The notes beneath the pieces are model-generated. The model saw only the letters and a list, made by a program, of their open reading frames with translations, ran no database searches and had not been told where the DNA came from. The position numbers and the translations under genes were made by a program. Of a stretch of 64,000 bases of DNA, positions 136 through 63,428 are shown in pieces; the stretch's first letter is position 1; each line of letters starts with the position of its first letter. The stretch covers positions 62,001-126,000 of the forward strand of contig JANQPL010000002.1 in assembly GCA_028289425.1 (NCBI GenBank), given 5' to 3'. Origin of the DNA: Alphaproteobacteria bacterium. Lineage in GTDB: Bacteria; Pseudomonadota; Alphaproteobacteria; JANQMY01.

Positions 136-227
136 CCTGGCCAGCCCTCTCCCCCTCCCAAACCACCCACAGGGTACCCTTGGGGTGGTTGGCCCAAAAC
201 CAATAAGAGGGGGAGTGGGTGGCCAGG
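136..227 (-). other. long imperfect hairpin just downstream of panC
   Basis: Nested inverted repeats run through this stretch: 136-143 with 220-227 (8 bp, CCTGGCCA), 149-157 with 207-215 (9 bp, CTCCCCCTC), and 158-168 with 182-192 (10 bp with one bulged A), around a central AGGGTACCCT palindrome. It starts 12 nt beyond the panC stop. No U-run follows on the minus strand, so it may stabilise the panC mRNA end or be a decayed repeat rather than a classical terminator. With copy 1 of the REP it fills the gene-free 1-238 interval. A short open frame ending in TGA at 38-40 could be the tail of a gene entering from the left, but it is too short to call. Confidence 0.5.
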
Positions 228-53532: not shown

Positions 53533-54750
53533 ATGGAACTTGCTCACAATCCTCTGCCGCGCAAAGCCTATACCGACATTGCTTGGTTTCACCATGAACA
53601 AGAACAGCTCATGAAATCGGCATGGGTTTTTGCCGGCGTGGAGGGCGACTTCGCCGCGCCGGGGGATTACCGTGCGGTGCCATCGGGTGCGTTCACACTC
53701 ATTGTCTTGAGAGACACTGACGGTGACCTGAAAGCCTTTCACAATGTATGCCGGCATCGCGGCGCCCAACTGTTGGAGGGGCAAGGCAATGCGGGCGCGG
53801 TCTTGGTGTGTCCCTATCACCGCTGGACATATGATTTAAACGGCGCGCTGCGGGGTGCGCCGAACCAAGTGTCTTGTTTTCCGTCGCTCGATCGAGAACG
53901 ATTGGGGCTCAAGCCGGCGGCGGTCGGCAGGTTTCAGAATCTTGTTTTTGTCAATCCGGATCCCGCGGCTTCATTCGACACATGGATAGGCCCGATCAAA
54001 GATTGTGCCTGGCCCCATGATCCGGCATGGCCCCACCTTCAGGAAAACGCGCCGCTTACCTATGACATGAAATGCGATTGGAAGGTCTTCGCGGAGAATG
54101 CTATTGACGGATATCACCTGGCCTATCTGCACGAGAACACGCTGGGCGGACCCGTGCCGAACGAAAATGTTTGGGAGCGGCACGGCGACCACATGGTGTG
54201 GTACGCCCTCGATGAACCGGGTGCCCATCAATCGATGACCGCCAAAACCGAGCGCGATTATTCAATGGCGGGCGCTACGATGATTCCGGGGGCGGATCAA
54301 ACCGGTTACGGTGGTGTCTACTACCTGTTCCCGACCACATTCGTCACCTGCAACCCCTATAGCTTCAGCGTAGCGTCCTTGGCTGCCCAGGGGCCCGGTC
54401 ATACGCATCTCGTCGTGCGTTTGTGGGGGCTCGAACAGCAAGAGCGGTTTTCACCGGAACATGTGCATGGGTATGACTCAGAGACTGGCATGATCACGTC
54501 CGATAAATGGACCGTGCCGGCCACGCAGGCCGGCGATTTTCAAACCGAAGATGTGTGGATCTGCGAACGCATTCAGCGCGGCCTCAACTCGCCGGCATTT
54601 GAGCTGGGGCCGCTGGCCCAAGGGCCGGGCGCCGAAGATCCCATTCGTTGGTTCCATGACATCATGCAAGCACGTCTAGGGCATGATCATTTTTCACGGA
54701 AACATGATCATGCCCCAGATTCTTTGTTGGTCGCGCGATCGGACGGTTAA
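53533..54750 (+). CDS. Rieske non-haem iron oxygenase, alpha subunit
   Basis: This 405-aa ring-hydroxylating-type oxygenase starts at ATG 53533 behind GGAGGTGTAAGGG. The Rieske [2Fe-2S] site is Cys73/His75 (CRHRG) and Cys93/His96 (CPYHRW). The mononuclear iron ligands lie in DGYHLAYLH (Asp192, His195, His200). It resembles the single-component-alpha or choline/carnitine monooxygenase-like group more than aromatic dioxygenases with a beta subunit; no beta subunit or reductase is adjacent. The last 25 residues (from about 381) are encoded by an inserted palindromic repeat, so the native C-terminus was probably different. Confidence 0.9.
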   Translation: MELAHNPLPRKAYTDIAWFHHEQEQLMKSAWVFAGVEGDFAAPGDYRAVPSGAFTLIVLRDTDGDLKAFHNVCRHRGAQLLEGQGNAGAVLVCPYHRWTYDLNGALRGAPNQVSCFPSLDRERLGLKPAAVGRFQNLVFVNPDPAASFDTWIGPIKDCAWPHDPAWPHLQENAPLTYDMKCDWKVFAENAIDGYHLAYLHENTLGGPVPNENVWERHGDHMVWYALDEPGAHQSMTAKTERDYSMAGATMIPGADQTGYGGVYYLFPTTFVTCNPYSFSVASLAAQGPGHTHLVVRLWGLEQQERFSPEHVHGYDSETGMITSDKWTVPATQAGDFQTEDVWICERIQRGLNSPAFELGPLAQGPGAEDPIRWFHDIMQARLGHDHFSRKHDHAPDSLLVARSDG

Positions 54751-54782
54751 CCGGATTCCACTTAACCTGATCGCGCTCTAGG
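54675..54782 (-). repeat. two-hairpin mosaic repeat, copy A
   Basis: On the minus strand, hairpin 1 has an 8-bp outer stem (54733-54740 with 54769-54776) and a 6-bp inner stem (54745-54750 with 54762-54767) around a GTGGAATCCGG loop. Hairpin 2 is a perfect 12-bp stem (54679-54690 with 54704-54715). CTAG lies at both ends. The element overlaps the 3' ends of both the Rieske gene and the HxlR gene. Confidence 0.8.
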
Positions 54783-55101
54783 CTAGTTCCTTTGCCCATC
54801 GGATCGACCAACGGTCCAGCGCCACCAAAGTGCCGCCCAATTCTTCGCCCCAACGGGTGAGCATGAAGCCCTCATCCGTCAGATCCACCAGCGCCATTTC
54901 GCGCAACTCTTTTAGGCGCTTGTTGAGCAGCGTGGGGGAGACAAAATCGCACCGTTCTTGGAGGGCGCGAAACGTGTAGGGACCGTCGCGCAGCTCCCAC
55001 AAAATGCGCATGGTCCAGCGCTGCCCAAGCACATCGAACAGCACCATGATGGGCCGGCCGGTGGTCGACCCCCGGACAGGCGATCCGACTTTCTTCGCCA
55101 A
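54778..55101 (-). CDS. HxlR family winged-helix regulator
   Basis: This regulator has the HxlR pattern: VLGQRWTMRILWELRDGPYTF, split between helix 1 and the wing, and RALQERCDFVSPTLLNKRL for the recognition helix. I place the start at TTG 55101 (107 aa) because AGGAG lies 8 nt upstream. An in-frame ATG at 55143 would start inside the 42-bp palindrome that looks like the operator. The TAG stop comes from the terminal CTAG of repeat copy A. It is divergent from the CMD gene and probably represses it and itself. Confidence 0.9.
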   Translation of the reverse strand: MAKKVGSPVRGSTTGRPIMVLFDVLGQRWTMRILWELRDGPYTFRALQERCDFVSPTLLNKRLKELREMALVDLTDEGFMLTRWGEELGGTLVALDRWSIRWAKELA

Positions 55102-55120
55102 AACGCGTTCTCCTCTTGAC

Positions 55121-55162
55121 GCTACATAATTTGTAGCATACATATGCTACCAAATATGTAGC
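55121..55162. promoter_or_regulatory. 42-bp palindromic operator of the HxlR regulator
   Basis: The two 21-nt arms (55121-55141 and 55142-55162) match at 18 of 21 positions in inverted orientation. Each arm contains GCTACATA and a second TAGCATA element, so two dimers could bind side by side. It lies between the HxlR and CMD genes and covers the space where both promoters must be. The nearest ribosome site of the CMD gene begins 3 nt downstream. Confidence 0.8.
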
Positions 55163-55176
55163 AGAGAGGTGATGTC

Positions 55177-55722
55177 GTGGCAAACGTGCTCAAACCCGTC
55201 GAAGAACCCTATTCCCCCGAGATAGCAGAGATCTTCAAGGGGTACCCTCAACAGGACGGATATATTCTGAAACTCTTCCGCACCTTCGCGAACAGTGTGC
55301 GGTTCCTCAAAAAGGGCGTGCCCAATCTGCTGGACAAAGCCAGCCCCTTGCCCATGCGCCATCGCGAAATCGTCATTCTACGGATCACCGCCAACAATAA
55401 TTGCGAATATGAGTGGGGTGTGCATGTGAGCGTGTTCAGCGACCATGTGAAGCTCACGGAAGAGCAGGTGCAGGCAACCCGTTTGCTGGACCACACGGCG
55501 CCGTGCTGGCAGCCGGAAGAAGCGCTGCTCGTGAAAGTGATTGACGAATTGTGTGGGAGCGGCACCATCCAAGACGACACCTACAGGGCGTTTCAAGAGA
55601 CGTGGACCGTGGAACAGCAGCTCGAAATCCTGGCGCTCGCCGGTACCTACCACACGGTGAGTTTCGTTGCCAACGCGGCTCGGGTGGAAAATGAAGAGTT
55701 CGGCGCCCGGTTTCCGGCTTAG
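55177..55722 (+). CDS. carboxymuconolactone decarboxylase (CMD/AhpD-like) family protein
   Basis: This 181-aa protein starts at GTG 55177 (gagaggtgat upstream). The CMD core MRHREIVILRITANNNCEYEW, given here as two family blocks MRHREIVILRI and NNCEYEWGVHVSVF, holds the conserved Glu and His but only one Cys, so it is not an AhpD-type CxxC peroxidase. Proteins of this kind often sit under stress regulators. The divergent HxlR gene and the shared palindrome point to control by that regulator, perhaps in response to electrophiles or quinones. Confidence 0.88.
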   Translation: MANVLKPVEEPYSPEIAEIFKGYPQQDGYILKLFRTFANSVRFLKKGVPNLLDKASPLPMRHREIVILRITANNNCEYEWGVHVSVFSDHVKLTEEQVQATRLLDHTAPCWQPEEALLVKVIDELCGSGTIQDDTYRAFQETWTVEQQLEILALAGTYHTVSFVANAARVENEEFGARFPA

Positions 55723-56765
55723 CCCGAAACTTTGGAGTTGCGCTTTGCCGTGCTGAATGAAACCAGCCGCTTCCGCTTCTCATCCCACAACGCCAAGGGA
55801 ATGCAGCTCAAGCTTTGCCACAGGGTGAGGCGGTTGACGGAGGTGAGTTCCGGATGATCGCGCAGCACTTGGCGCAGGCGATAGAAGGGGATGCGGCTGC
55901 TCAAGTGATGCACGTGATGCACGCCGATATTGCCGGTAAACCAGCGCAGGATGCGCGGCAAGTCATAATGAGAACTGCCTTGGAGCGCTGCTTCATGGGG
56001 GTTCCAGGCGCCGGCAGGTGCCCAAAATGTTTCATCGAATTGGTGCTGCACGTAAAACAGCCAAATCCCAATGGACGCCGCTAACAAAGTGATCGGAATT
56101 TGCACCAGCAGGAACGGGCCGAGCCCCACCAGCCAGATCAGGCCGGTGACGATGGCGGCAATGGCAAGATTTGTTGCCATGGGGCTGATCCACCCGGTCA
56201 CCTTTTTGATGTCGAGGCCGAGAGGTAGGCGGTGGCGCAACACGAACAAATAGACGGAACCGAAACCGAACAGAACCACTGGGTTTCTGTAGAGGCGGTA
56301 ACCAACCCGTTGCCAAAACGACAAAGCATGATATTCGGCGACCGTCAGTGTGGCGATATCGCCAATGCCGCGGCGCTCCAAATGGCCGGTGCTGGCATGA
56401 TGAATGGCATGGTTCCGGCGCCAGGCATCATACGGCGTTAACGTCAGGACACCAATGATACGCCCAACCCAATCGTTCACATACCGGTTGCTGAAGAACG
56501 ATCCATGCCCGCAATCATGCTGGATCATGAACAGGCGCACCAGAAACCCCGCGGCAATCAGTGAGGGAATAAATGAAAGCCACCAATAACCGAAATAGAT
56601 GGCCGCCCACGCCAACACCCACAGGGCCAGAAACGGCAACAGGGTAATGGCGGTTTCAAAGATGCCGCGCGGATCGCTTGGTCTTTTGTATCGCGCCAGC
56701 AGCTTCACCCATCCGCGGGCTTCGCCTGAAATCTCATGGGAGTGTTGGGGGGAGGGATGAGTCAT
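55719..56765 (-). CDS. membrane fatty acid desaturase
   Basis: This 348-aa di-iron desaturase has four or more membrane spans and the three His boxes HDCGHGSFF (box 1), HAIHHASTGHL (box 2) and HHVHHLSSRIP (box 3), the scheme of FAD2/DesA-type acyl-lipid desaturases. The third box HVHHL fits the delta-12/omega-6 group. The likely role is introducing a double bond in membrane lipid acyl chains. Stops of this gene and the CMD gene overlap by 4 nt. A 130-nt gap separates it from the PF12694 gene upstream. Confidence 0.93.
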   Translation of the reverse strand: MTHPSPQHSHEISGEARGWVKLLARYKRPSDPRGIFETAITLLPFLALWVLAWAAIYFGYWWLSFIPSLIAAGFLVRLFMIQHDCGHGSFFSNRYVNDWVGRIIGVLTLTPYDAWRRNHAIHHASTGHLERRGIGDIATLTVAEYHALSFWQRVGYRLYRNPVVLFGFGSVYLFVLRHRLPLGLDIKKVTGWISPMATNLAIAAIVTGLIWLVGLGPFLLVQIPITLLAASIGIWLFYVQHQFDETFWAPAGAWNPHEAALQGSSHYDLPRILRWFTGNIGVHHVHHLSSRIPFYRLRQVLRDHPELTSVNRLTLWQSLSCIPLALWDEKRKRLVSFSTAKRNSKVSG

Positions 56766-56895
56766 AGATACGCTTTGAATACCGGTGGCGGTATACGCCG
56801 GGAATTCGCCCGTTTAGCGGATGAGGCAGAGGCGAGCAACCAACAAATGCGCAACGGGTGCGTGCAGGCGAACACAATTTTGCGATAGGAGCGGC

Positions 56896-57396
56896 CTATC
56901 GTGTTGAAGCCGTTGAGAAAACTTGCCGCAGAACCGCATACGCCGCGTCTGCCACACCGGGCTGATTTTTTTCGCTGGGCCCCGCCACGTTCAGTGTCTG
57001 CGGGTGCAGACCCTCCAGCCATTCGCTGATGCGCCGCACGGCGGCTGGATCCGAGAGGCTGACGAAGGTTGAGCGTTTCTTGTAGTGGTCGCAGATTGTG
57101 AAGGTGAGCCGGGTGCCTGCATCATCCGGCGCGGACAACGCCAGCACCAACGTTGCGTCCGCATCGCGCACGTTCCATTCCGTGCGTAGGGAGCGGGGCA
57201 CGTCCGGCGCTAAGGGCGAACGGTCGTCCGGCGTTTCCGTGAGCGGAAAGGAGAAGGGGATCGTGCCGCTTTCGCACACGCGGCCGGGCGGGCACCAGCC
57301 GCCGATCTCAAGCCCGCCGTCACGCGCTGCCCTGAGGGCCGCTTCATCCACGCCGGTCTGTCCGCCGGAGATGATTTTTGAAAGCGTTGTGGTCAC
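56896..57396 (-). CDS. putative molybdenum carrier family protein (SLOG/YpsA-like)
   Basis: This 166-aa protein belongs to the putative molybdenum carrier family, part of the LOG/SLOG nucleotide-binding superfamily. The opening KIISGGQTGVDEAALRAA carries the GGQTGVD loop, followed by GGWCPPGRVCESG and the later DADATLVLAL strand. The family was named after a Moco carrier protein from algae, but bacterial members are mostly uncharacterised. It follows the Coq4-like gene by 27 nt, in the TetR-coq4 transcript. Confidence 0.85.
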   Translation of the reverse strand: MTTTLSKIISGGQTGVDEAALRAARDGGLEIGGWCPPGRVCESGTIPFSFPLTETPDDRSPLAPDVPRSLRTEWNVRDADATLVLALSAPDDAGTRLTFTICDHYKKRSTFVSLSDPAAVRRISEWLEGLHPQTLNVAGPSEKNQPGVADAAYAVLRQVFSTASTR

Positions 57397-57423
57397 CCAT
57401 CGACCATGCGGGCTTTCGAACCG

Positions 57424-58191
57424 TTATGCAAAGTTTGAGGCGTAGATTGCCGGATCTCTATGGAGTCTCTCCGGCTCACCGATTTTTAGCGCCGCCCGCA
57501 CAGACGACAAAGGTTCACCGAGTAACTGTTCATAGGGCACGGCATCCAGCGGGACGGCCCGGCGGCCGCGGCGCCAGGCGCGCCACAATTCAGCCGCGTA
57601 AGAAAGTCCGCGCGTCTGAACCGTCCGGATCCCGGCGCCGATGGTGAGAAGCCAATTTGCAAGACCGCCGTGTTGGGCCAGGGCAAATGCCAGCAGCGTC
57701 GCCTCTCCCAAATCATCGGCGCCGTAGCCGGTCAGCACATGCCACAAATCGTGAGACAGGCTTTGCCGCTCGCCAAACCACTCAAGGCCCGGCTCGTGGG
57801 AGGATTGGAACTCTTCCGTGTCGCGGCGCAAGACAATCAGCTTGTCCACGTCGAGCCCATGTTTCTCCATATGTTGCAGATAGGCGTGGCCAAAACTGCC
57901 TGCCGGTAACGCTTTTAGCCGCTCCTTATCGCGCAACGCTTCCAGCAAACTAGGCTGTTCGTAGAACAGGCGGCGTCCTTGGGCGTAACGCAGAATGCGG
58001 CGCAGACCCCGTTCGCGCATATTAGGATCAAGAGCGTCAAAAATTTCGAACGCCATTTCGGTCCTTTGGGAATCGTCCAGTAGCGTTTTGAGCGCACGGT
58101 AGCCCCGGCGCCATTGAGGGCCGTGATGGGGTGACCAGGACTTTTTCGTTATCCGTGTTTGAAAGGTGAGCGTATCGATGGTCATGATCAA
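57424..58191 (-). CDS. Coq4 family protein
   Basis: This 255-aa protein is related to COQ4, a scaffold/decarboxylation factor of ubiquinone biosynthesis. The zinc motif HDxxHx11E is intact: His147, Asp148, His151 and Glu163 (HDLWHVLTGYGADDLGE). The first 20 residues, including the initial MIMTIDTLTFQTR, are not recognisable. Bacterial Coq4 relatives are common in alphaproteobacteria, often outside ubi operons. The gene is 9 nt downstream of a TetR regulator. Confidence 0.88.
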   Translation of the reverse strand: MIMTIDTLTFQTRITKKSWSPHHGPQWRRGYRALKTLLDDSQRTEMAFEIFDALDPNMRERGLRRILRYAQGRRLFYEQPSLLEALRDKERLKALPAGSFGHAYLQHMEKHGLDVDKLIVLRRDTEEFQSSHEPGLEWFGERQSLSHDLWHVLTGYGADDLGEATLLAFALAQHGGLANWLLTIGAGIRTVQTRGLSYAAELWRAWRRGRRAVPLDAVPYEQLLGEPLSSVRAALKIGEPERLHRDPAIYASNFA

Positions 58192-58200
58192 ATCTCCTTT

Positions 58201-58887
58201 CTAATTTGCGTCCTCGTCCACGGGCGACTCGAATTCAAGATCCGCTTGGAAAACCGGGCTTGCGTCTGCGTAAGTGGACAGGTCTTTCGTGGCAATGGGG
58301 CCTAAGAATATGTCCGCCGTGCGAACCATCCGGGCACTGAGCGGTTCGGAGGAATCGTCATAAAGCCAGTGGGTGATGGTACCGTTCACCAGGCTGTCGA
58401 AGACTTCGGTCAAATCTTCCGGCATGTGATCACGGGAAAGATCGCCGCGTGCCTGGCCGCGCGCGATCAGTTTGAAGAGCCTGTCGTTGGCGGCCTGGCG
58501 CGTGGCTTCAGCGGGGCCGCCTTCGTCGAGTCCCACGGACAGTTTTGTCATCTCACGGAAGACGGCGCGGTAAAAGCGCCGGCTGTTCTCGATCCCCATG
58601 CCCATGAACTCAAACAGCGCGCGAATGAGCGCCGGTGTCGGGGTGGTGCGGTCGGCCAGGGCTTGGTCCAGCAGATCCGCGTAGACGGCGCGCACCCGCT
58701 CGGTGATGCCGTTCATCAGCGCGTGCTTAGAGCCGAAATGGTTGAACACGGTAGAACGGGCAACGCCCGCCTCCGCCGCCACATCGGCCATGGTCACGTC
58801 TTCCACGCCGCGCTCAGAAAACAGCGCCTGCGCTGCTTCCAGGATTCGGGCACGTTGTTCCGCGTTGTTTTGGCGTCTTTTGCTCAT
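58201..58887 (-). CDS. TetR/AcrR family transcriptional regulator
   Basis: This 228-aa regulator has a TetR helix-turn-helix at about residues 30-52 (TMADVAAEAGVARSTVFNHF) and a long ligand domain. It is the first gene of a leftward transcript with the Coq4-like and PF12694 genes. Directly upstream lies a pair of GACTnnAGTC palindromes (58893-58926), the likely operator, so the operon would be autoregulated. The inducer is unknown. Confidence 0.92.
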   Translation of the reverse strand: MSKRRQNNAEQRARILEAAQALFSERGVEDVTMADVAAEAGVARSTVFNHFGSKHALMNGITERVRAVYADLLDQALADRTTPTPALIRALFEFMGMGIENSRRFYRAVFREMTKLSVGLDEGGPAEATRQAANDRLFKLIARGQARGDLSRDHMPEDLTEVFDSLVNGTITHWLYDDSSEPLSARMVRTADIFLGPIATKDLSTYADASPVFQADLEFESPVDEDAN

Positions 58888-58892
58888 TTCTT

Positions 58893-58926
58893 GGACTTCA
58901 GTCTAGCAAAAAATAGACTCGAGTCC
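58893..58926. promoter_or_regulatory. twin palindromic operator of the TetR-coq4 operon
   Basis: Two 10-bp palindromes, GACTTCAGTC (58894-58903) and GACTCGAGTC (58916-58925), are separated by 12 nt. The larger arms 58893-58905 and 58914-58926 also form an inverted repeat (11 of 13). They begin 6 nt upstream of the TetR ATG, and TetR proteins commonly bind such pairs. Confidence 0.7.
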
Positions 58927-58988
58927 AGATATTTGTAGATCCGGAGATTATGGCCGGCTGCGGCACTACCATGTTGTGCCGTCAGCCG

Positions 58989-59297
58989 TTATAGGCAGGC
59001 GCCATATATAGCGCAGCTCAGAAGGATCGTGGCGATTGGAAGAATGCCCAGACTGATCAGCCAGGCGACCATGGCGAACAACCAAAAGGCAATGCTGTTT
59101 ACGTGGAAAAGAGCAGCCAGCAGCCGGGCAGACGCAAGGAAGACGACCGTCGGGATCACGAACAGGAACATTGTCCGTGAGGTCAGCCAAGAGTCCGGCA
59201 TATCGAGGCCTAGTAGGTAAAGTGGATTGACAACAAAAAGAGTGAGACAAACCGCAAAGGCTGTCGCAAAGATTGCGGCGTATTTCACCGCCGTCAT
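58989..59297 (-). CDS. small hypothetical membrane protein
   Basis: This 102-aa protein has about three hydrophobic spans: AAIFATAFAVCLTLFVV, TMFLFVIPTVVFLASARLL and FWLFAMVAWLISLGILPIATILL (parts of each shown). I do not recognise a family. GAGGG lies 5 nt upstream of the ATG at 59297. It follows the flotillin operon's terminator by 9 nt, so its transcript must start in or after the repeat at 59339 or come from readthrough. Confidence 0.6.
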   Translation of the reverse strand: MTAVKYAAIFATAFAVCLTLFVVNPLYLLGLDMPDSWLTSRTMFLFVIPTVVFLASARLLAALFHVNSIAFWLFAMVAWLISLGILPIATILLSCAIYGACL

Positions 59298-59311
59298 AGC
59301 GCCCTCACAAA

Positions 59312-59333
59312 AAGAGGGCCCGAAGGCCCTCTT
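59312..59333 (-). terminator. rho-independent terminator of the flotillin operon
   Basis: On the minus strand a 9-bp stem AAGAGGGCC/GGCCCTCTT closes a TTCG tetraloop (59325-59333 with 59312-59320) and is followed by TTTG after the stem's final TT. This is a strong intrinsic terminator for the RHH-PspA-YqiJ-flotillin transcript. Confidence 0.85.
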
Positions 59334-59338
59334 CGCAG

Positions 59339-59432
59339 CGTTTCCAGGTGAAGTGGGTACCGGTTCACCGTCCGGAAACGAGCAAAAACGATCATAGGGC
59401 GTTTCTGTATTTCAGACATCGCAGAAGCGCCC
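59339..59432 (+). repeat. two-hairpin mosaic repeat, copy B
   Basis: Hairpin 1 has a 7-bp outer stem CGTTTCC/GGAAACG (59339-59345 with 59374-59380), a 6-bp inner stem GGTGAA/TTCACC (59347-59352 with 59364-59369) and a GTGGGTACCGG loop. Hairpin 2 is an 11-bp stem (59397-59407 with 59422-59432) with one G-T pair. It lies between the flotillin stop and the terminator. Confidence 0.8.
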
Positions 59433-59443
59433 CGCGCTGTGTT

Positions 59444-61135
59444 TTAGTGTTCCGGCCGCTCTTCATGAAGCGGATCGGTGAGACCGTTCAGGTCGTCGCT
59501 CGACAGGCCCACTTCTTTCAACAGTGAGTCCACCAACGGGGCTTGGGCGCGGTAACGCAGCGCGCTGTTCACCACCTGGTCGGCCAGATTCCCGTTGCCG
59601 TTGGCGACCGGCAAGCCGGCGCTATCGGCGGCGCCATTCACATAATGCGCGCCATTGCCGTTCGCGCCGCTTAGGCCATCCACCTGCACGATCTTGATGC
59701 TGTCGATGTGCTCCAGCGGTTTGACGGATTCGCGCAGCACGCCTTCGATCTTCTGCAAGAGTTCGAGCTTCACCTGCATTTCGATCTGCTCGCGCGACAG
59801 CACGTTGGCCGCTTCGTTGATGGCCTTCTTACCTTCCGCTTCCACCGCATAGCGCACTTCGGCCGCAGCGGCTTTGAGCTTCTCGGCCTCGGCTTCACCG
59901 GTGGCCTCCAGGCGCATGGCTTCGGCCTGGTCGGCGGCAGCCGCCTTTTCGGCGTCGGCAGCTACTTTCACTTTGATGGCTTCGCGCTCCGCGTTTTTGG
60001 CAGCCTCAATGAGTTCGATTTCCTTCTCACGATTGGCCGCTTCCGTATCGCGCGAGGTCTTCACGGCTTCCTCCGCCTGCACCGCTTTGGCGCGGGCGTA
60101 GTCCGCCATTTCTTGGGCTTCCGACTGCGCCTTGGATTTTTCGGCAATGGCGATGGCACGGTCTTGTTCGGCTAATTCCACCGCCTTCTGACGATCCACG
60201 TCTTGGGTTTCGACGGCACGCTGCTTCTCGATGCGCTCTTGTTCGACCGCAAGTTCGGACGAAATTTGCGACTGTTCCACTTGCTGTGCCGCCATGATTT
60301 TGGCTTGCTCGGCCGCTTGTTCTTTCTCAGCCTGCTCGCGGGCAATTTCCGCCTTTTGGCTTGCACGGCGCACCTCGATTTCGCGCTGTTGCGCAAGTCG
60401 GGCATATTCTTCTTCCCGGCCGATCTGCAGTTTCTGACGTTCCGCATCCAGATTTTTCTCTTTGATCTGGACTTGGGTGTCCTGCTCGATGTCGTTGCGG
60501 ATTTTCCGCCTGCGTTCGATCTCGTCGGTGAGGCGAGTCAAACCTTCCGCGTCGAACGCGTTGTTCGGGTTGAAGAACTCCATGCCGGTCTGATCAAGAC
60601 CAGTGAGCGACACCGACTCAAGCTCCAAACCGTTTTTCAGCAAGTCTTCCGACACCACTTGCTGCACTTTCAGCACAAAGTCCGAGCGCTGCTCGTGCAA
60701 TTCTTCCATGGCCATTTCGGCAGCCACAGAACGCAAGGCGTCAACGAACTTACCTTCGATTAGGTTTTTGAGTTCACCCGGCTGCATGGTGCGGTGACCA
60801 AGCGTTTGCGCTGCATCGGCGATCGCTTCGGCCGTGGGCTTCACGCGCACATAGAATTCGGCTTGCACGTCCACACGCATGCGGTCGCGGGTGATCAACG
60901 CTTGCTCATTGTTGCGCCGCACTTCCAGCCGCAACGTGTTCATATTGACGGGGATGATCTCATGCAGCACGGGCAGGACGAGCGAGCCGCCATTCATGAT
61001 GACTTTCTGGCCACCGAAACCGGTGCGCACATACGATATTTCCTTGGAGGCGCGCCGATAGAGCCGCGCCAAGATGATGCCGATGGTCAGTAGGGCGACA
61101 AAAATCGTGCCCGACCAAAAGATGACTTCCATCAT
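59444..61135 (-). CDS. flotillin family protein (YqiK-like)
   Basis: This 563-aa membrane-anchored scaffold has an N-terminal span (about residues 4-23), an SPFH/PHB domain to about residue 190, and a long Glu/Ala/Lys-rich coiled coil (about 225-445) made of AEKxxA repeats. The C-terminal region is less ordered and ends in a short hydrophilic tail. Bacterial flotillins mark lipid microdomains and affect membrane fluidity. Here it is last in a run with PspA and YqiJ, so it is probably a membrane stress and organisation protein. Confidence 0.92.
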   Translation of the reverse strand: MMEVIFWSGTIFVALLTIGIILARLYRRASKEISYVRTGFGGQKVIMNGGSLVLPVLHEIIPVNMNTLRLEVRRNNEQALITRDRMRVDVQAEFYVRVKPTAEAIADAAQTLGHRTMQPGELKNLIEGKFVDALRSVAAEMAMEELHEQRSDFVLKVQQVVSEDLLKNGLELESVSLTGLDQTGMEFFNPNNAFDAEGLTRLTDEIERRRKIRNDIEQDTQVQIKEKNLDAERQKLQIGREEEYARLAQQREIEVRRASQKAEIAREQAEKEQAAEQAKIMAAQQVEQSQISSELAVEQERIEKQRAVETQDVDRQKAVELAEQDRAIAIAEKSKAQSEAQEMADYARAKAVQAEEAVKTSRDTEAANREKEIELIEAAKNAEREAIKVKVAADAEKAAAADQAEAMRLEATGEAEAEKLKAAAAEVRYAVEAEGKKAINEAANVLSREQIEMQVKLELLQKIEGVLRESVKPLEHIDSIKIVQVDGLSGANGNGAHYVNGAADSAGLPVANGNGNLADQVVNSALRYRAQAPLVDSLLKEVGLSSDDLNGLTDPLHEERPEH

Positions 61136-61161
61136 AGGGTCTTACCTCCTGTATGAGCCCC

Positions 61162-61866
61162 TCACGATGAGCGGGCTTCTGGGGCGAGGGACGGGTGTGT
61201 GTTTTTGATCGCGAAAAAAACCGTGCCTTCCTGACGTACGATCAGCACGTCGGTTCCCTCCGGCAGGCTTTCTTCCGCGTTGTCTGGCTCCACCAAAATG
61301 TAGTGGCTTTGCTTGAATGCATCTTCGAGCTTGGCTTGCGCCGGGTTGTCCCGTTTGGCGTTGCCGAGCACGAGAGTCGCCGTGCGGCCGATAAAGGTTT
61401 TTTCCGACACAGCAGAGGTTTCTTCCTTCGGCATGATCTGCGCCATGGCTTTGCCACCGACGCGCACCGTGAAGATGCCGGCGATAAGCGCGGGCAGGGC
61501 GGCGATAACGGCCGGCATCAGAACGCCAACACTCCCGGCCACTATTCTCTGCACGAACAAACCGGCAAGGCCGAAGGCCGTTAGGAAGATGACGAGCAAG
61601 ATCAACACCGGCACTTTTCCCACATTGAGCCAAGACAAAATGTGGCTCAGCGTTGTGCCGCTTGCCGATAGATCGGCGTCGAGATCCGCGTCCGCATCGA
61701 TGTCGACGTCCATGTCCACATCAAAGTCGGGGATGAACTGATCCACCACTTGGGAAATGGCCAAGCCGAACAGCATGCCCACGATCTCAACCAGCGCGAT
61801 CCCCACCATGAGGGCAAGCGCTATGGCAAAGACTTGGTTCTGCGGCAGCAGAAGAAAGTCGAACAT
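61162..61866 (-). CDS. YqiJ/OB-fold membrane protein paired with flotillin
   Basis: This 234-aa protein has an N-terminal span, a run of alternating Asp residues (10 Asp at every second position, 47-65), then two or three spans (about 80-135) and a C-terminal OB-like (NfeD-type) domain from about residue 150 (TFIGRTATLVLG, AIKNTHPSLAPE). YqiJ-NfeD proteins partner with flotillins. Its gene is 26 nt upstream of the flotillin gene. Confidence 0.9.
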   Translation of the reverse strand: MFDFLLLPQNQVFAIALALMVGIALVEIVGMLFGLAISQVVDQFIPDFDVDMDVDIDADADLDADLSASGTTLSHILSWLNVGKVPVLILLVIFLTAFGLAGLFVQRIVAGSVGVLMPAVIAALPALIAGIFTVRVGGKAMAQIMPKEETSAVSEKTFIGRTATLVLGNAKRDNPAQAKLEDAFKQSHYILVEPDNAEESLPEGTDVLIVRQEGTVFFAIKNTHPSLAPEARSS

Positions 61867-61907
61867 TACGTCCCTCCTTGATGTGGTTTAGGGGTGCGCT
61901 GCGCCTT

Positions 61908-62594
61908 TCAAGCTTTCGCCTGTTGGCTTTTCAACGCCGCAAGCCTTTCTTTCACACGATTGGTGCGCGACAGCGCATCTAACTCCGCAAGCTGCGTGGC
62001 ATTGGACAGCGACGTTTCGCCATTCCCCGAAACACCGGTCTGGTTTTCCATGGTGCGTTCGAAAGCGGCGATGGCTTTTTCGGCTGCCGCGGTAATACGC
62101 TGGCCCGCAGGCTCTGCCGCATCGATGCCGCTGTCGCCCGTCGGCGTTTTCTTGCGTGAGGCAACGAAGGCTTTGAGATCGTCGCGCATTTCACGCTTCT
62201 TGGCCTGTAGAGCCGAAATGTAGCCGTTCAGCTCGTTTTCGCTTTCGGCGCAATCGGCAATGGTGTGTTCCAGCACCGGGATCTGCGCTTCGATGTCCAG
62301 TTGGTTCGATACAGCGGCTTCCGCCAAATCGTCCCGCTTTTCGGACAGCGCAAGTTCGATCTGCTGACTGAGCTTTTCGTGCTGGCTGTTTTTTTCGGAA
62401 AGTTTTTTGGTCGCCAGGTGTTTATTGGCGATGACGTTGCCCAATTCGCTGCGCACGTCATCGATCGTGCTGTCCAATTCGCGCACGGCTTGTTCCATGA
62501 CCGTTTTCGGATTCGCATTTTCCAGCGTATCCACCAGCGCATTCACACTGCCGGTAATCAATCGGCCAACGCGGCCGGCAAGCGACTCCATCAT
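61908..62594 (-). CDS. PspA/IM30 family membrane-stress protein
   Basis: This 228-aa PspA-family protein is almost wholly helical coiled coil. MESLAGRVGRLITGSVNALVDTLENANPKTVM at the N-terminus (shown in part) is the amphipathic membrane-binding helix; AVRELDSTIDDVRSELG and KREMRDDLKAF follow. PspA protects membranes during proton-leak or envelope stress. The ATG at 62594 overlaps the upstream stop as ATGA. It lies between the RHH-like regulator gene and yqiJ. Confidence 0.92.
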   Translation of the reverse strand: MMESLAGRVGRLITGSVNALVDTLENANPKTVMEQAVRELDSTIDDVRSELGNVIANKHLATKKLSEKNSQHEKLSQQIELALSEKRDDLAEAAVSNQLDIEAQIPVLEHTIADCAESENELNGYISALQAKKREMRDDLKAFVASRKKTPTGDSGIDAAEPAGQRITAAAEKAIAAFERTMENQTGVSGNGETSLSNATQLAELDALSRTNRVKERLAALKSQQAKA

Positions 62595-63109
62595 TTGCGG
62601 TTCTCCTTTATGGTCCGGGACTTGGAAACAACAGTGGAAAGATCCAAAACACGGTCGATGTTGCGGGCCACAATGGCCGGGTCGTAGCACGGAGCCTGGT
62701 CGGTAATGCCCAGACGTATCACCGTTTCACACAACCTAAGTGTCCGTTCCATGACACCTTGTTCAAAACTCTCGAGCTGCAGCGATGCTTTTTTCGATTC
62801 CTTCTTGACTGGCGGCGATGCCGCATAGGCGTCGGCCTCGATAAGCCAGTCGAGAAACAGGCGCACCAACTCCGAATGAACTTTGTCCTGTTGTTCCTGT
62901 TGGGCGAGCTGATTAAGCACGGCCCTGAATTGAGCCTGAAACGTGGACAACGCCCCTTCATAGCTGCGCTCGCGGCTTTCCAGCAGGCGCGCGCGTCTGA
63001 TCAGCGCACGAATCTTATCACTGGGGGTGACGGCGTCTTCAATCTTTAGGGATGCAATAAACTCGGCGTCTTCGGGCGAGACTCGCACGCTCACCGGAAC
63101 TGATTTCAT
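62591..63109 (-). CDS. putative ribbon-helix-helix regulator of the PspA-flotillin operon
   Basis: This 172-aa protein has an N-terminal segment VSVRVSPEDAEFIASL followed by TPSDKIRALIRRARLLES, which fits the strand-helix-helix pattern of RHH DNA-binding proteins. The remaining 125 residues are helical (AQFRAVLNQLAQQEQQDK, RLFLDWLIEADAYA) and I do not recognise them. The ATG 63109 has GGGAGAGGGAA upstream, and an 18-bp palindrome lies just beyond. It leads the operon and is probably its autoregulator; this is inference. Confidence 0.7.
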   Translation of the reverse strand: MKSVPVSVRVSPEDAEFIASLKIEDAVTPSDKIRALIRRARLLESRERSYEGALSTFQAQFRAVLNQLAQQEQQDKVHSELVRLFLDWLIEADAYAASPPVKKESKKASLQLESFEQGVMERTLRLCETVIRLGITDQAPCYDPAIVARNIDRVLDLSTVVSKSRTIKENRK

Positions 63110-63120
63110 TTCCCTCTCCC

Positions 63121-63138
63121 TGTATGCAATTGTATACA
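63121..63138. promoter_or_regulatory. palindromic operator upstream of the RHH gene
   Basis: TGTATGCAATTGTATACA is an 18-bp palindrome with one mismatched pair (positions 6 and 13), placed directly upstream of the RHH gene's ribosome site. The half-site TGTATA suits a dimeric regulator that would block transcription or translation start of the PspA-flotillin operon. Confidence 0.65.
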
Positions 63139-63328
63139 GATTTAGGGATTTGATGACGTCTTTTCAAGATATGGTGATCGAAAGATGCACGAAAAAGTGG
63201 AAAAATCGCGAATTTCGCCCTATGGGACTTGTTTTCCGCTGATTTCTTAACCCAGAGCGGCCCAGGCCGTTGCAAGCGTAAAAAAGGTGCTATGGTCTGG
63301 CCTCTGTCGGCCCCTGGCCGACTGGAGC

Positions 63329-63428
63329 ATCGGGCGATTTATCTGAATCGCCTGATACTGCAGATTTTTTTAGTGGTCGCGCCGGTAACGCGAAAAACCG
63401 GGTCCACTTTTTCGCCCGGCGCTCTAGG
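63329..63428 (-). repeat. two-hairpin mosaic repeat, copy C
   Basis: On the minus strand hairpin 1 has a 7-bp outer stem (63379-63385 with 63416-63422), a 7-bp inner stem CGAAAAA/TTTTTCG (63391-63397 with 63408-63414) and loop GTGGACCCGG. Hairpin 2 is an 11-bp stem (63329-63339 with 63346-63356) with one G-T pair. It shares CCTAGAGCGC and CGCGACCA with copy A. Within the gene-free 63110-63502 it is the main recognisable feature besides the operator at 63121. Confidence 0.78.

Follow-up and report, generated by a model that had tools for sequence, protein, structure and literature searches.

The window analysed here, a stretch of 64,000 nucleotides from an alphaproteobacterium (contig JANQPL010000002.1, positions 62,001 to 126,000), contains three copies of a two-hairpin element with a unit of about 106 nt, each copy falling into a different subfamily. 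Copy 1 (54676–54781, minus strand; 'GATC' subfamily) spans the full length of the unit, carries CTAG at either end and, folded as RNA on the element strand, gives z = −8.9; its hairpin 1 (54733–54776, minus) carries the loop GTGGAATCCGG at 54751–54761, with a GANTC site within it, and its predicted hairpin 2 lies at 54676–54718 (minus). The terminal CTAG at 54778–54781 provides the TAG stop codon of an HxlR-family gene (54778–55143, minus), and a Rieske/ring-hydroxylating oxygenase frame (53533–54750, plus) extends into the copy from the other side, so that roughly its last two dozen codons come from the element. Copy 2 (59333–59435, plus; 'TTTCC' subfamily; element-strand fold z = −5.0), in which the terminal CTAG motifs are lost or degenerate, has hairpin 1 at 59339–59380 (plus), with the loop GTGGGTACCGG at 59353–59363, and a predicted hairpin 2 with a 12-bp stem at 59397–59432 (plus); adjoining it is a terminator-like hairpin (AAAGAGGGCCCGAAGGCCCTCTT, 59305–59332) that is kept, without the copy, in the single congener genome examined (G001). 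Copy 3 (63322–63427, minus; 'CCGG' subfamily; element-strand fold z = −5.7) comprises hairpin 1 at 63379–63422 (minus), its loop shortened to GTGGACCCGG, and a predicted hairpin 2 at 63322–63363 (minus).

A covariance model (R1; 106 nt, 27 pairs across the two hairpins) was built from 24 copies of the window's own genome, including window copies 1 and 2 and leaving out copy 3. R1 scored the three copies at 117 bits (E=4.7e-28), 71 bits (E=2e-16) and 68.8 bits (E=1e-15), respectively, the last being an independent match since copy 3 was outside the training set. The original prediction, of three two-hairpin copies with a fixed GTGGxxxCCGG loop, was borne out as to the copies, and the predicted folds agree with its hairpin layout (outer stem, 1-nt versus 4-nt internal loop, inner stem, fixed loop, linker and second long stem); the loop is as claimed in copies 1 and 2 but one base shorter in copy 3 (GTGG-AC-CCGG), which is why the exact pattern GTGGNNNCCGG was found at only two of the three. 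Taken by itself, this 11-mer is no rarer in the window than chance would give (6 occurrences against an expected 3.6). The longer core AAGTGGNNNCCGGTT, by contrast with a reversed control pattern that gave no occurrence, was found 41 times in the 5.42-Mb genome, placing the family far beyond chance. Reading 30 of these core loci defined a unit of about 106 nt that starts with CTAGAGCG and ends with GCTCTAG, and the general layout is YTA-[R AGCG, hairpin 1 with the fixed loop, A-rich linker, hairpin 2, GCTY]-TAR. Tandem copies have one CTAG in common. At least four subfamilies, with unlike stems in both hairpins, are present in the own genome (GATC, TTTCC, CCGG and GTGTC types).

Copies from the genus also carry mosaic internal insertions. 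In five 'GATC' copies of the own genome (L001, L009, L013, L017 and L018) a third hairpin (CCTGCCTTCGCCGAA...GCGCAGGCAGG) is inserted at the base of hairpin 1; its 16-mer CCTGCCTTCGCCGAAG is present at other loci of the genome too, which makes it look as though another palindromic repeat were nested inside the two-hairpin element. In the congener, copies of 117–145 nt (for example L295:6430-6561 and L324:9082-9211) have a hairpin-1 loop insert like CATGCCCTCGGGCTTGACCCGATGG. About 16 of 94 congener copies share an insert at the same place in this loop, resembling a CGTC-type repetitive extragenic palindrome (REP), which suggests that the composite of two-hairpin element and REP-like insert was itself copied. 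A different palindrome, CCCAACCACCC...GGTACC...GGGTGGTTGGG, recurs in both genomes (window 158–193; L031:741-815; the flanks of copies at L295 and L297), and at L297 a two-hairpin copy is located in its loop.

The covariance-model search of the genome and its relatives that accompanied the original prediction as a proposal gave 74 copies in the own genome at E<=1e-3 (86 at E<=0.1) and at least 145 in the congener; among 25 relatives, R1 also found copies in four other families. Further R1 counts were 85 in Caulobacter vibrioides OR37, 81 in Caulobacter Root655, 39 in Rhizobium albus, 24 in Novispirillum, 77 in Xanthobacter, at least 150 in Bosea, 85 in Bradyrhizobium, 133 in Marinicaulis and 125 in Methylobacterium, while 350 kb of Sinorhizobium meliloti pSymB held 12 copies at E<0.01, of which the four best are full length. 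The element was also found on Agrobacterium and Martelella plasmids. In a pattern scan of genome contigs the named genomes were nearly all Alphaproteobacteria, with a few records labelled otherwise, and under strict filters 17 of 144 genomes in the class sample were positive. Phage records searched for the repeat gave no match, and a phage origin was rejected on this basis.

The element is a discrete, dispersed unit with sharp ends, present at some orthologous sites and absent from others. Across 74 congener copies, conservation ends at YTAR on both sides (<=0.12 bits in the three adjoining bases); class-wide, the end profile reaches up to 0.31 bits within four bases outside YTAR, and the profiles place TA at both termini. 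In one Bradyrhizobium genome, three further copies in unrelated places are 100% identical to the query copy over 105–106 nt, and sister species hold many copies of >90% identity with the same end points; Bradyrhizobium also carries another, distinct dispersed repeat, about 165 nt long (L087:5631-5798), with many matches at 81–86% identity. Window copies 2 and 3 are missing at the orthologous sites of the congener; copy 1 is missing too, but a neighbouring gene differs and the case is not clean. Conversely, several congener copies are missing from the own genome, with L295, L302 and L324 as the best cases. The clearest filled/empty pair is intraspecific: S. meliloti 1021 has a copy at a CTAG that is the stop codon of an SPW-repeat gene, where strains Rm41, USDA1021 and RMO17 have CTAG only. 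On an Agrobacterium pusense plasmid (L346), a copy consisting of hairpin 1 only follows a racemase gene whose stop is TAG in place of the TAA of three sister plasmids without the copy, the protein end being unchanged; this copy was rejected as a full-length match, because the part resembling hairpin 2 is host flank present in the empty plasmids too. The S. medicae site for L356:6568 was likewise rejected as a clean empty site. At L302 and L346 the joint reads as a duplicated TA, two-base and four-base duplications being indistinguishable where the target is CTAG. From these comparisons of genomes with and without a copy, the sequences suggest that TA dinucleotides are the insertion target and that the element often lands precisely on a stop codon, which is kept.

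Genes were called by a simple longest-ORF (open reading frame) rule, so the position and stop-codon counts that follow are approximate. The YTAR ends fall on native stop codons above expectation: among the congener copies, 28 of 87 have an end that coincides exactly with a stop codon, against 249 of 1260 YTAR sites outside coding sequence (odds ratio 1.9, p=0.009), and where stop-codon copies had an ortholog, the terminal residue was the same in 6 of 7. For G000 and G001 together, convergent gaps hold 31 of the 84 copies that were classified (background 148/689, p=0.0025), divergent (promoter) gaps are avoided (10/84 copies against 193/689, p=0.001), and copies beside genes in tandem gaps have no strand preference (23 versus 20).

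The subfamilies have different stems that are nevertheless paired, and the covariation claimed from three copies holds in much larger sets. Pairing holds in 92% of the cells of the training set, where covariation is 0.512, compared with 0.160 after shuffling and at most 0.149 after sliding; 100 congener copies outside the training set gave 0.487 (0.153 shuffled, at most 0.119 slid), with double changes in 22 of 27 pairs, and 102 copies from the genome-contig scan, class-wide, gave 0.493 (0.140 shuffled). The congener and class-wide alignments were fitted to R1, and all counts are of cells, not events. Within congener subfamilies (TTTCC, GATC and CCGG, the three larger named ones), double changes restore pairing 118 times and break it 13 times, which favours a pairing requirement at some stage. 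In the inner stems G-U cells exceed A-C cells (87 versus 54, p=0.007), a hint that the element strand may exist in single-stranded form. That compensation implies selection, as had been proposed, is nevertheless too strong a statement: much of the divergence among copies separates one amplified subfamily from another, and pairing could also be re-established, with no selection acting, if palindromes are corrected by template switching. Given that subfamilies amplify and that hairpins are able to correct themselves, covariation alone is no proof that every copy is under selection.

These data bear on whether the element is a resident functional RNA or DNA, its hairpins acting in mRNA 3' ends (termination, protection from decay) or as cruciforms and being selected copy by copy. 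The strength of the stem covariation, the surplus of restored over broken pairs within subfamilies, the G-U excess and the enrichment in convergent gaps would all fit such a role, yet the two orientations are about equally frequent beside genes, copies are gained and lost between strains and species, the cell counts are inflated by shared ancestry, and a search of Rfam, low threshold included, gave no family match to the element, on which ground a known structured RNA was rejected. We therefore consider copy-by-copy selection of a resident element unlikely.

Less probable still, and in our view very doubtful, is a regulatory element linked to CcrM, in which the GANTC sites of loop and linker would be kept for methylation-dependent control, as the name of the CcrM-associated intergenic repeats (CIR) implies. 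GANTC is indeed enriched, with own-genome copies averaging 1.33 sites and congener copies 1.23 against 0.40–0.43 after shuffling, and GcrA is found in 16 of 17 repeat-positive genomes compared with 77 of 127 others (p=0.006), a co-occurrence confounded by phylogeny, which may explain it. The hairpin-1 loop, however, has GANTC in about half of the copies of the genus and in only 4 of 90 outside it, and a conserved loop GANTC is not supported as a class-wide key; two of the three window copies lack the site in this loop, and any GANTC at all was found in 51 of 102 copies class-wide.

A REPIN-like element moved by a REP-associated tyrosine transposase (RAYT, a Y1 transposase), the link raised in the original prediction, accords with two hairpins bearing a tetranucleotide at both ends and with two Y1_Tnp genes in the own genome, but it can be dismissed as highly improbable, and the RAYT was rejected as mobiliser, because neither gene has a copy within 1.5 kb, 11 of the 17 genomes positive for the repeat have no Y1_Tnp (among them the single-contig genome G010, with 67 copies), Y1_Tnp is not associated with the repeat across genomes (p=0.38), and the apparent TA duplication is unlike Y1 transposition. 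At L031, a different repeated motif (CGGTGACAGTGCACTAAATAG, CAAAGTGCACTGTCACCGAA; 1075-1190 and 1890-1920) flanks a RAYT-like gene and is perhaps that gene's own target. An IS630-type (PF13358) or DUF4096/IS427-type (PF13340) cognate transposase encoded in the own genome was also rejected, neither profile having a match there; other DDE families were not searched.

The reading that we regard as probable is that the element is a non-autonomous mobile palindromic repeat of the kind of the Rhizobium-specific intergenic mosaic elements (RIME), CIR and Bru-RS, given the model's copies across Alphaproteobacteria and the strong stem covariation, and that it inserts at TA through an enzyme acting in trans. 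We infer, purely from their conservation, that this enzyme would recognise the folded hairpins and the fixed loop; it would insert the unit into TA, often within CTAG, with duplication of the TA. Whichever way round the unit lies, its first base is often G or A, so that a TAA or TAG receiving an insertion would still read as a stop codon, and copies would for this reason be tolerated at gene ends. The hairpins would be kept mainly for mobility, and whatever influence they had on mRNA ends or on GANTC methylation by CcrM would be incidental. Several points weigh against the proposal. No transposase could be assigned among those looked for (Y1_Tnp, PF13358 and PF13340), and the stop-codon enrichment is modest. 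The reading as TA duplication comes from two sites, of which the congener site has a diverged left flank and the Agrobacterium site has a flanking substitution and hairpin 1 only, and at CTAG targets TA and CTAG duplication are ambiguous. In several of the comparisons with the congener the flanks are poorly conserved, one S. meliloti/S. medicae site does not show a clean insertion, and some of the filled/empty differences may instead reflect deletion in the empty genome.

From architecture, size, ends and hosts, compared through published descriptions, we infer that the element belongs with RIME, CIR and Bru-RS. RIMEs are said to have been described in S. meliloti by Osteras et al. in 1995, CIR1–4 reportedly by Chen and Shapiro in 2003, and Bru-RS1 and Bru-RS2 of Brucella reportedly by Halling and Bricker in 1994. 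The likeness to RIME, already noted in the original prediction, is upheld by the full-length copies that R1 recovers in S. meliloti, where RIMEs were described: both are palindromic mosaic intergenic repeats of rhizobia, with R1 copies on pSymB, although the present element, on this reading, is not Rhizobium-specific and RIME was compared by description. CIR1–4 are repeats about 110 bp long in which a linker connects two inverted-repeat arms; they have GANTC in the loop and TA termini, and for them terminal inverted repeats are listed as absent and the target-site duplication is given as unknown (PMC2229807). The present element is similar in size, arms and linker, terminal TA and its frequency in Caulobacter and other Alphaproteobacteria, and it too carries GANTC sites, if not as a fixed loop feature across the class; it differs from CIR, as described, in having short inverted ends (YTARAGC) and an apparent TA duplication. 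Bru-RS1/2 are palindromic repeats of 103–106 bp (PMC10800456) and hot spots for insertion of IS711, an element with YTAR as its target and a TA duplication (PMC2266754, PMC3163539); as described, they resemble the present element in size, palindromy and this YTAR/TA link. RUP, Correia and similar miniature inverted-repeat transposable elements are likewise non-autonomous repeats of about 100 bp with TA ends (PMC2229807), whereas the present element has two separate hairpins in place of one end-to-end stem, and its own genome lacks a PF13358 transposase. REPIN/RAYT systems and GTAG/CGTC REPs share dispersed paired hairpins (PMC3116915, PMC3733652), whereas the present element has neither a GTAG tag nor a linked RAYT and shows the apparent TA duplication.

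For about 30 years repeats of the RIME, CIR and Bru-RS kind have been catalogued without a settled function or mobility, and the target-site duplication of CIR is given as unknown (PMC2229807); the present work adds evidence of mobility. With the filled/empty pairs of S. meliloti and of the sister plasmids, the YTAR ends and the position on stop codons, mobility becomes open to direct testing, and in genome annotation and small RNA surveys such repeats can be marked with a single covariance model. More tentatively, and with somewhat less than even confidence, we propose that RIME, CIR and Bru-RS may form one class-wide family of two-hairpin mobile elements with a preference for stop codons at YTAR. 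Insertion would duplicate TA and restore the stop whichever way the element faces, and the mobilising enzyme would read the hairpins and the GTGG...CCGG loop.

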